Source: a bacterium (GTDB lineage: Bacteria > Actinomycetota > Acidimicrobiia > Acidimicrobiales > CATQHL01). From it: a stretch of 51,271 bases of DNA. Numbering within the stretch: the stretch's first letter is position 1; each line of letters opens with the position of its first letter. Shown one piece after another: positions 7,486-25,640 of the stretch. The stretch covers positions 1 to 51,271 of the forward strand of contig JAPOVS010000014.1 in NCBI GenBank assembly GCA_026708055.1, in the 5' to 3' direction. Below the pieces are notes generated by a model, which was given only the letters and a program-made list of their open reading frames with translations, did not search any database and was not told where the DNA came from. The position numbers and the translations under genes are program-made.

Positions 7486-7579
7486 CGTCATTCCGGGGGA
7501 GGCCGGCGCCCAGCGATCCGTCATTCCGGCGAAGGCCGGCGCCCAGCGATCCGTCATTCCGGCGAAGGCCGGAATCCAG
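7486..7579. repeat. Three tandem copies of the 28-bp palindromic repeat
   Basis: Copies at 7486-7513, 7519-7546 and 7552-7579 are separated by the same 5 bases (CGATC), giving an exact 33-bp period. The third copy is the most complete: ATTCCGGC, a GAAG loop, then GCCGGAAT form an 8-bp stem. The first copy is degenerate in the stem. The array lies between the stop of the acyl-CoA dehydrogenase and the SDR gene. Confidence 0.9.
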
Positions 7580-23910: not shown

Positions 23911-24447
23911 TCAGGCGGTCGTGAGGAGGTCGGCAACCTCGTCGGCGACTGCTGCGGCGTACTTACGGAGGTCGTCGTCGCCCACCGACGAGATGGGGTG
24001 GGGGACCGCGGCGGACGGGTAGCCGGGCGCCCCGACGGTCGGGGCGAAGCGGGCCGCCACGGCCACGAACGGCTCGGTGACCACGAGCGCGGTGGGCACG
24101 CCCCGGCTCTCGAGCAACACTGCGTCGTGCAGACTGCACGCCGTGCAGGCGCCTCAATCGCCGACGCCGGAGATCACCAAGTGCGAACGCGCCGCCAGCA
24201 TGTCGGCGACGTCGGCGTCGATCGGCTTGCCGGCGGCCGGCTTGGAGTACACGTCCACGGTCGCCAACGGCAGGCGGCTGCGCAGCTCGTCGGCCACATG
24301 GCCCAGCAGCGTGCGGGCGTTGGGCTTGCCGTTCTCGATCAGCGTGAGGTGCAGCGCGTCGGCGGCGCCGCGTGTACGGCGGGGGGCGCGGGCGATGCTG
24401 CGTGCCTTGGGGACGTGGTCCGGTCGAACGACGGTGATGGTGGCCAT
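23911..24447 (-). CDS. UGSC-family (seleno)protein read through an in-frame UGA
   Basis: Two open frames on the minus strand are in the same frame and are split only by one TGA at 24156-24154. Read through, the 178-codon product runs from MATITVVRPDHVPK to VADLLTTA. The split lies in LVISGVGD-U-GACTACSLHDA, followed by VLLESRGVPTALVVTEPF. This matches, from memory, the UGSC family, where selenocysteine precedes Gly-Ser-Cys; here the motif is U98-Gly-Ala-Cys101, a redox UxxC. A stem-loop follows the UGA (24126-24140). The gene is 50 bases downstream of its likely partner (24498-25640). Function unknown; a thiol/selenol redox or reductase role is inferred. A nonsense mutation is the alternative, but conserved residues continue on both sides. 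Confidence 0.8.
24126..24148 (-). promoter_or_regulatory. Candidate bacterial SECIS stem-loop after the UGA
   Basis: In the mRNA, 13 bases after the UGA, CGUGCA-GUC-UGCACG forms a perfect 6-bp stem (24140-24126). Its loop contains GU, as in E. coli formate dehydrogenase SECIS elements, where the spacing is about 11 bases. An overlapping alternative stem, CUGCAC-GGC-GUGCAG (24148-24134), is also perfect. The position fits recruitment of SelB; the fold has not been computed. Confidence 0.5.
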
Positions 24448-24495: not shown

Positions 24496-24523
24496 GGTCA
24501 TTCCGGCGCAGGCCGGGATCCAG
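24496..24523 (+). repeat. 28-bp palindromic repeat copy providing a stop codon
   Basis: A slightly degenerate copy (GCAG loop, GGATCCAG end). Its TCA at 24498-24500 is read on the minus strand as the TGA stop of the 380-aa gene, whose last nine or so residues (IPGSRPAPE) are therefore repeat-encoded. Confidence 0.85.
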
Positions 24524-25640
24524 GGATCGAGGTCCGGCGCGTGCCGTCGGTGGCCACCGCAGGACTCGGCTGGTTCTGCGGCAGGCCCGCGCCCGGCACC
24601 GGCACCCGGCGCGTCACGGCGATGCTGTGCAGCGTCGGAGCCCACACCGGCAGGTACGCCGACCAGCCGGCGCCGTGGCCGCCGGAGGTCACCAGGAAGA
24701 CGTCGTCGGCGCTGCGCACCGTCGGAAGCCTGCCGTCGGGTCCCGGTGTCATGTCGTGCTGGGTGTCGACCTCGAGGAACACGCCTGCCGCTTCGATCTC
24801 GGCAGGTGTGACCCGGCTGGCGTCGGCGAGGAACTCCCGGACACGGCTGCGCGTCCAGCCCGCCTTGACGAGCGCGGCGGTGTGCTCGGGCCCCAGCACC
24901 ACCACCGCCTGGGCGCCCTTGCCGACGGGATAGGTGGCAGGGCAGCGCATGGCGGCCGCCATCGTGGTGAGGATGCCCTCCGGCGAGGGGTTGAGGTGGT
25001 TGGCCACCTGGCGCGGCCCCTCGGTGCCCAGGATCGTGACGGTGGAGTCCTCGAGGCCGTAACCCAACTCCACCCGCAGCGGCTCCCAGGGAGCGGTCGG
25101 CTCGTCCTCGGCGAGGCACAGCGTGAACTTGCCCGGGTGGCCGATGGAGGAGGCGTCCATCTCGCCGGTTCGGGCGCCGAAGACGTTGCGGGCCACGAGG
25201 CGCAGCGTGCGGCCCACGGCGGCGTTGGCGCGACTGCCCGGCCCGAGGGCGTTGTGGCGGGTGGCCATCTGCAACTCAGCGGTCACCGGCCCGCTCACGA
25301 GCAGGCAGAAGGCGGCCCCGCCGGTGCTGGTCATCACCGTGTGGGCGTTGAACGTCGGATCCAGCATGGCGCAGAGGGCCGCCACCACCAGCGGGAAGTG
25401 CCCGGGCGCGCAGCCGGCCATGACGGCGTTGGCGGCCGCCTGCTGGGCGTTGAGCGAGCGGCCCCGTGCCTCGATGGTGCCGAGCATGGTGTCGGGCGAG
25501 AGCCCCGCATGGTCCAGGAGCGCCCCCACACGCTCGGGCGTCGGCGCCACGACGGGCAGCCCGTCGGTCCAGCCCAGGCGATGGAACTCATCGAGGAAGT
25601 CGGCGTCATCGAAATCGATCGTGCGCAGACCGTCGGGCAT
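24498..25640 (-). CDS. Conserved protein of unknown function, partner of UGSC gene
   Basis: From ATG 25640 the product is 380 aa (MPDGLRTIDFDDADFLDEF); longer starts would add residues that are antisense to the CoA-transferase gene. Recognisable blocks are LGWTDGLPVVAPTPERV, AANAVMAGCAPGHFPLVVAAL, TSTGGAAFCLLVSGP and VFLVTSGGHGAGW. From memory, the WTDGLPVVxPT protein type recurs beside UGSC selenoproteins, so the two probably form one enzyme or complex. I know no assigned reaction. It has several Cys but no classical CxxC pair. The C-terminus ends in the palindromic repeat, so the ancestral tail may have been replaced. It diverges from the leaderless CoA-transferase operon. Confidence 0.75.
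   Translation of the reverse strand: MPDGLRTIDFDDADFLDEFHRLGWTDGLPVVAPTPERVGALLDHAGLSPDTMLGTIEARGRSLNAQQAAANAVMAGCAPGHFPLVVAALCAMLDPTFNAHTVMTSTGGAAFCLLVSGPVTAELQMATRHNALGPGSRANAAVGRTLRLVARNVFGARTGEMDASSIGHPGKFTLCLAEDEPTAPWEPLRVELGYGLEDSTVTILGTEGPRQVANHLNPSPEGILTTMAAAMRCPATYPVGKGAQAVVVLGPEHTAALVKAGWTRSRVREFLADASRVTPAEIEAAGVFLEVDTQHDMTPGPDGRLPTVRSADDVFLVTSGGHGAGWSAYLPVWAPTLHSIAVTRRVPVPGAGLPQNQPSPAVATDGTRRTSIPGSRPAPE

Follow-up and report, generated by a model that had tools for sequence, protein, structure and literature searches.

A UGSC-family selenoprotein gene and its constant partner in an acidimicrobial genome: a possible clue to what the family does

The window, by which we mean the whole stretch of 51,271 nucleotides analysed here (contig JAPOVS010000014.1 of assembly GCA_026708055.1), comes from an acidimicrobial genome that is 96% complete and carries on its minus strand a gene that begins with ATG at 24447-24445, runs through an in-frame TGA at 24156-24154, and ends with a further TGA at 23913-23911. 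Directly upstream lies the gene of a larger protein, which we call the partner, and the features of both genes are collected in Table 1. Other neighbours at the locus encode CoA-transferase subunits, an SDR, an F420-type oxidoreductase, and a sugar-type periplasmic binding protein. A short palindromic repeat of the GTCATTCCGGCGAAGGCCGGAATCCAG type is dispersed through the window, with seven copies in 51 kb (at 7520, 7553, 10188, 11805, 13660, 23874, and 24497); the partner gene takes its stop codon and C-terminal tail from one of these copies, and another lies just after the stop of the TGA-containing gene.

Table 1. Positions of the genes and features discussed in the text, numbered within the window.
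Feature	Position	Strand	Description
UGSC-family selenoprotein gene	23911..24447	-	178 codons plus stop, with in-frame UGA; supported by PF24696, NF041046, and selection
TGA codon 98, predicted selenocysteine	24154..24156	-	Sec or Cys in relatives
Bacterial SECIS-type hairpin	24124..24142	-	Apical loop GUC; 19 nt from UGA to loop; -9.3 kcal/mol
Constant partner protein gene	24498..25640	-	380 aa, beginning MPDGLRT; lies upstream of the UGSC gene in the same direction, with 50 bp between it and the UGSC start codon

A preliminary description of this DNA had proposed that two minus-strand half-frames are in register, split by the TGA only, and together encode a UGSC-type selenoprotein with Ala in place of Ser. 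Both proposals stand. The halves on either side of the TGA belong to a single frame with similar codon-position GC (GC3 of 0.92 and 0.93), and the read-through product is matched by the UGSC model PF24696 from residue 18 to 176, across the UGA, with an E-value of 5.7e-46 and 157.2 bits against a cut-off of 25; NF041046 scores 125.8 bits, barely over its cut-off of 125. The UGSC/UxxC motif of the family, headed by Sec or Cys, is present as U-G-A-C, within a longer stretch, GVGD-U-GACTACSLHD, in which the U opens U-G-A-C-T-A-C. The UxxC redox centre that had been proposed is correct, and it can be given more precisely as UxxCxxC, which a 2026 review (PMC13188914) describes as the motif of GrdB. 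The protein resembles the rest of the family in its full-length domain, in the site of Sec within UxxC, in its bacterial SECIS-type hairpin, and in its adjoining partner, and differs in the tetrad UGAC, which is common to its nearest relatives (L051, L034, and L040). On these comparisons, the gene belongs to a known selenoprotein family, of which it is an ordinary and well-proven representative, and we regard its assignment as a UGSC selenoprotein as nearly certain.

Automated annotation had been expected to turn such a gene into fragments or a pseudogene. Because the family is already curated, the NCBI pipeline is able to name it, and in this respect the expectation went too far; it is borne out on plasmid p2-T1 of Acidovorax sp. 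T1, where a Sec-containing fusion of UGSC and partner (L176, 8640-10202) has no annotation beyond a hypothetical protein of 96 aa that stops at the UGA.

To standard annotation the in-frame stop, taken by itself, would mark a pseudogene, formed when a Cys gene acquired an ordinary nonsense mutation, yet a TGA occupies the codon-98 position in 96 distinct genes across phyla, among them the closest homologue (L051, 87% identical). Against this homologue, dN/dS is about 0.25 before the TGA and 0.05 after it, and by this measure purifying selection acts on the gene both before and after the UGA, strongly so downstream. The genome also encodes the machinery for selenocysteine, as had been anticipated: contig 26 carries selA and selB, separated by about 300 bases, and, about 10 kb from them, a tRNA-Sec with anticodon tca, while selD (L020) is found at contig 40:60240-61175. 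This selD has an in-frame TGA of its own, and its product is itself a probable selenoprotein. The same genome has another UGSC gene interrupted in frame by TGA (L019), at contig 74:14800-15300. Across the phylum, UGSC matches occur in 28 of 396 genomes, and selA is present in 21 of 22 genomes with Sec-type UGSC versus 1 of 16 genomes of the same order without UGSC (Fisher p 1.6e-8, uncorrected for relatedness). The TGA shared by 96 genes, the selection downstream of it, the Sec machinery, and the selected hairpin described below together make a pseudogene extremely improbable. We consider it very improbable, too, that the UGA is read as another amino acid, or that the part after it is a gene of its own with an internal start: the family model crosses the UGA unbroken, the hairpin occurs in UGA genes and not in Cys homologues, and close relatives with a sense codon at this site have Cys. 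The sense-codon relatives collected for the same comparison all carry TGC or TGT (10/10), so that the Cys homologues sought at the UGA codon do exist. Residues other than Sec or Cys are confined to divergent outliers in the sequences compared, such as L047, a fused and distantly related protein in which Met replaces Sec; an aldehyde dehydrogenase gene adjoins L047. The preliminary description had named beforehand two findings that would speak against a selenoprotein, a genome without Sec machinery and homologues with residues unrelated to Cys or Sec; both were examined, and the genome has the machinery and close homologues have Sec or Cys.

The hairpin downstream of the UGA lies within the published constraints on bacterial SECIS elements, which are a loop of 3-9 nt with G in one of its first two positions, a stem of 4-16 bp, a spacing of 16-37 nt, and a minimum free energy at or below -7.5 (PMC13188914); its core stem has 6 bp, and the remaining values are given in Table 1. 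When the 42-54 nt that follow the UGA in the window are folded, their energy is unexceptional (z of -0.1 to -0.8); the evidence for the hairpin is comparative. Rfam searches returned no SECIS family match, and we therefore assessed the hairpin by shuffling synonymous codons. In the 96 distinct Sec genes, where it spans positions 14-32 counted from the T of the UGA, the stem forms 6.95 of 8 possible Watson-Crick pairs versus 4.48 ± 0.12 (s.d.) under shuffling, and the loop begins with G-U in every gene (96/96). At a stem site usually filled by a codon ending in C, all 14 genes that instead encode Trp (TGG) have C rather than G as the paired third codon base. The hairpin is absent from the 10 Cys homologues, which form 3.4 pairs versus 2.9 expected and keep the AGT loop codon in no case (0/10). 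As judged from these alignments, the hairpin is conserved well beyond protein constraint, changes in its paired codons compensate for each other, and only UGA genes carry it.

A tree of 74 UGSC proteins other than that of the window requires three changes of the Sec/Cys label, at least two of them forced by well-supported branches, and the Cys forms of the Mycobacterium-Candidimonas clade fall within a set of Sec forms. Such Sec-to-Cys switches provide naturally occurring Cys versions of the enzyme, suited to expression in standard laboratory hosts.

The partner is a constant companion of the UGSC gene. A same-strand partner lies within 800 bp of 109 of 110 UGSC hits, and a search with a partner profile recovered 80 loci in named genomes, in all of which UGSC adjoins the partner except for a few cut by contig ends; in one, the two genes are convergent. 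Because these 80 loci were selected via the partner, the unbiased test of linkage consists of the roughly 30 loci selected via UGSC, which agree. The two proteins are joined in frame in nine further cases besides the Sec-containing fusion of Acidovorax. The partner of the window matches no family in Pfam or NCBIfam, has no clear resemblance to PDB entries by sequence or fold, and shows no similarity to GrdB; the partner profile compared with that of GrdE, a pyruvoyl subunit of the GrdE/PrdA type (PF09338), gave an hhalign probability of 0.2%. A fusion of UGSC to an uncharacterised domain, UGSC/Unknown_1, was reported in the Global Ocean Sampling selenoproteome (PMC2398784), and the partner is probably Unknown_1, matched by description rather than by sequence. 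The earlier report described a fusion, whereas here the pairing is general and mostly involves separate neighbouring genes. From the near-invariable linkage and the natural fusions, we infer that UGSC and its partner form one enzyme.

A second lead comes from the Sec region, which matches GrdB-type models and not thioredoxin families. Individual UGSC proteins match the NCBIfam models for selenoprotein B of glycine, sarcosine, and betaine reductase and for PrdB; 15 of 23 members match the GrdB model and 14 of 23 the sarcosine model GrdF. The best GrdB-type match has an E-value of 1.2e-6 over the Sec region, while the window protein alone reaches 0.055. In hhalign comparisons of UGSC with GrdB-type profiles, Sec falls on Sec with pairwise E-values of 6.5e-5 and 7e-6 and probabilities of 64-85%, and when the GrdB profile was run against six-frame decoys, the best matches after one true GrdB relative were almost exclusively UGSC genes. 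The similarity is remote and spans about 85 residues; the UxxCxxC-type motif is followed, as in GrdB, GrdH, GrdF, and PrdB, by an E.xGIP segment and later by an HP motif. On this evidence, the Sec region of UGSC probably shares ancestry with selenoprotein B of the glycine, betaine, sarcosine, and D-proline reductases. We do not file the window protein as GrdB proper because the similarity is remote, PF07355 (GRDB) has no match in the source genome, and the partner is unrelated to GrdE; UGSC is also much shorter, at about 178 residues versus about 430. Hosts of UGSC in named genera are largely not amino-acid-fermenting anaerobes, unlike those of GrdB and PrdB. In the course of these searches we noted GrdB genes with a UGT motif in the same phylum (L131-L145), as well as short GrdB-like proteins, mostly with U-P-[LV]-C (L150-L159 and L062), that appear to be a further selenoprotein group of the superfamily in this phylum. 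The Pfam model for GRDB apparently breaks off at the UGA, perhaps because truncated proteins were used to build it.

A thioredoxin-like fold was suggested for UGSC in 2008 (PMC2398784). The predicted model (pLDDT 94) is instead a five-stranded alternating alpha/beta arrangement, with U98 at the N-terminal end of a helix; strand and helix alternate five times with no two consecutive strands, and the beta-beta-alpha unit of thioredoxin is absent. As judged from this model, which is not a solved structure, the thioredoxin fold does not fit, and the fold is predicted to be Rossmann or flavodoxin-like. Comparison with the PDB returned only generic Rossmann, flavodoxin, and receiver folds, and a sequence search of the PDB for a GrdB relative found none.

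Parts of a thioredoxin system recur around the pair, as they do in grd operons. The Arthrobacter operon has the order trxB-trxA-partner-UGSC, and Roseovarius, Variovorax, and Candidimonas have trxB in the vicinity of the pair; thioredoxin genes adjoin a minority of loci overall (3 of 80 genome loci). In several lineages and acidimicrobial loci, the partner bears an N-terminal CxxC thioredoxin-like extension with weak Pfam support. The window's partner lacks this extension, which is present in the partner that precedes the paralogue L019 of the same genome. The other genes near the pair belong, from locus to locus, to small-acid, CoA-ester, and transporter types with no constant member, and neighbourhood clustering found no constant third gene. 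The catabolic context that had been proposed is only loosely supported by the types of neighbouring genes, and the lack of a constant third gene tells against it.

These observations can be joined into a working model. SelB and tRNA-Sec would decode the UGA at codon 98, directed by the downstream hairpin, a step with strong comparative evidence, and the UGSC protein would pair with the partner encoded upstream. The UGSC protein may then work like GrdB: its selenolate would attack a carbon bearing a leaving group in a small carboxylic or acyl-type substrate held by the partner, Cys101 would resolve the adduct to leave a selenenyl-sulfide, and thioredoxin, separate or fused to the partner, would reduce this again. 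Attack, resolution, and reduction are modelled on the relation to GrdB and the published chemistry of GrdB and PrdB. For the whole chain, from Sec insertion to a two-subunit, thioredoxin-fed, GrdB-like reductase, we put the chances at about even. A different role would make the protein a selenoprotein all the same, acting as a general thiol or selenol oxidoreductase on peroxides, disulphides, or sulphoxides, with the partner as its protein substrate or regulator. The UxxC motif, the thioredoxin genes adjoining some loci, and the guess in the literature from a supposed thioredoxin-like fold would all suit such a role, but the alternating strands and helices of the predicted fold, the match of the Sec region to GrdB-type models, and a fixed pairing with a single large partner, unusual for a general redoxin, make it rather unlikely in our estimation.

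The constant partner and the GrdB-like Sec region, both recognised by comparison of sequences, suggest a lead on the function of the UGSC family, and with the recurring thioredoxin parts they replace "function unknown" by a definite assay with two proteins. More tentatively, and with somewhat less than even confidence, we propose that UGSC and its partner may constitute a new class of selenium-dependent reductase, in which a Sec domain related to GrdB and PrdB is combined with an unrelated, non-pyruvoyl substrate-binding subunit, and which would be thioredoxin-coupled and widespread in bacteria, many of them aerobic, and in some haloarchaea. The GrdB-like reading would give an abundant and unexplained family a testable function, and the new reductase class, if true, would bring selenium-carbon chemistry of the glycine-reductase type into aerobic catabolism.
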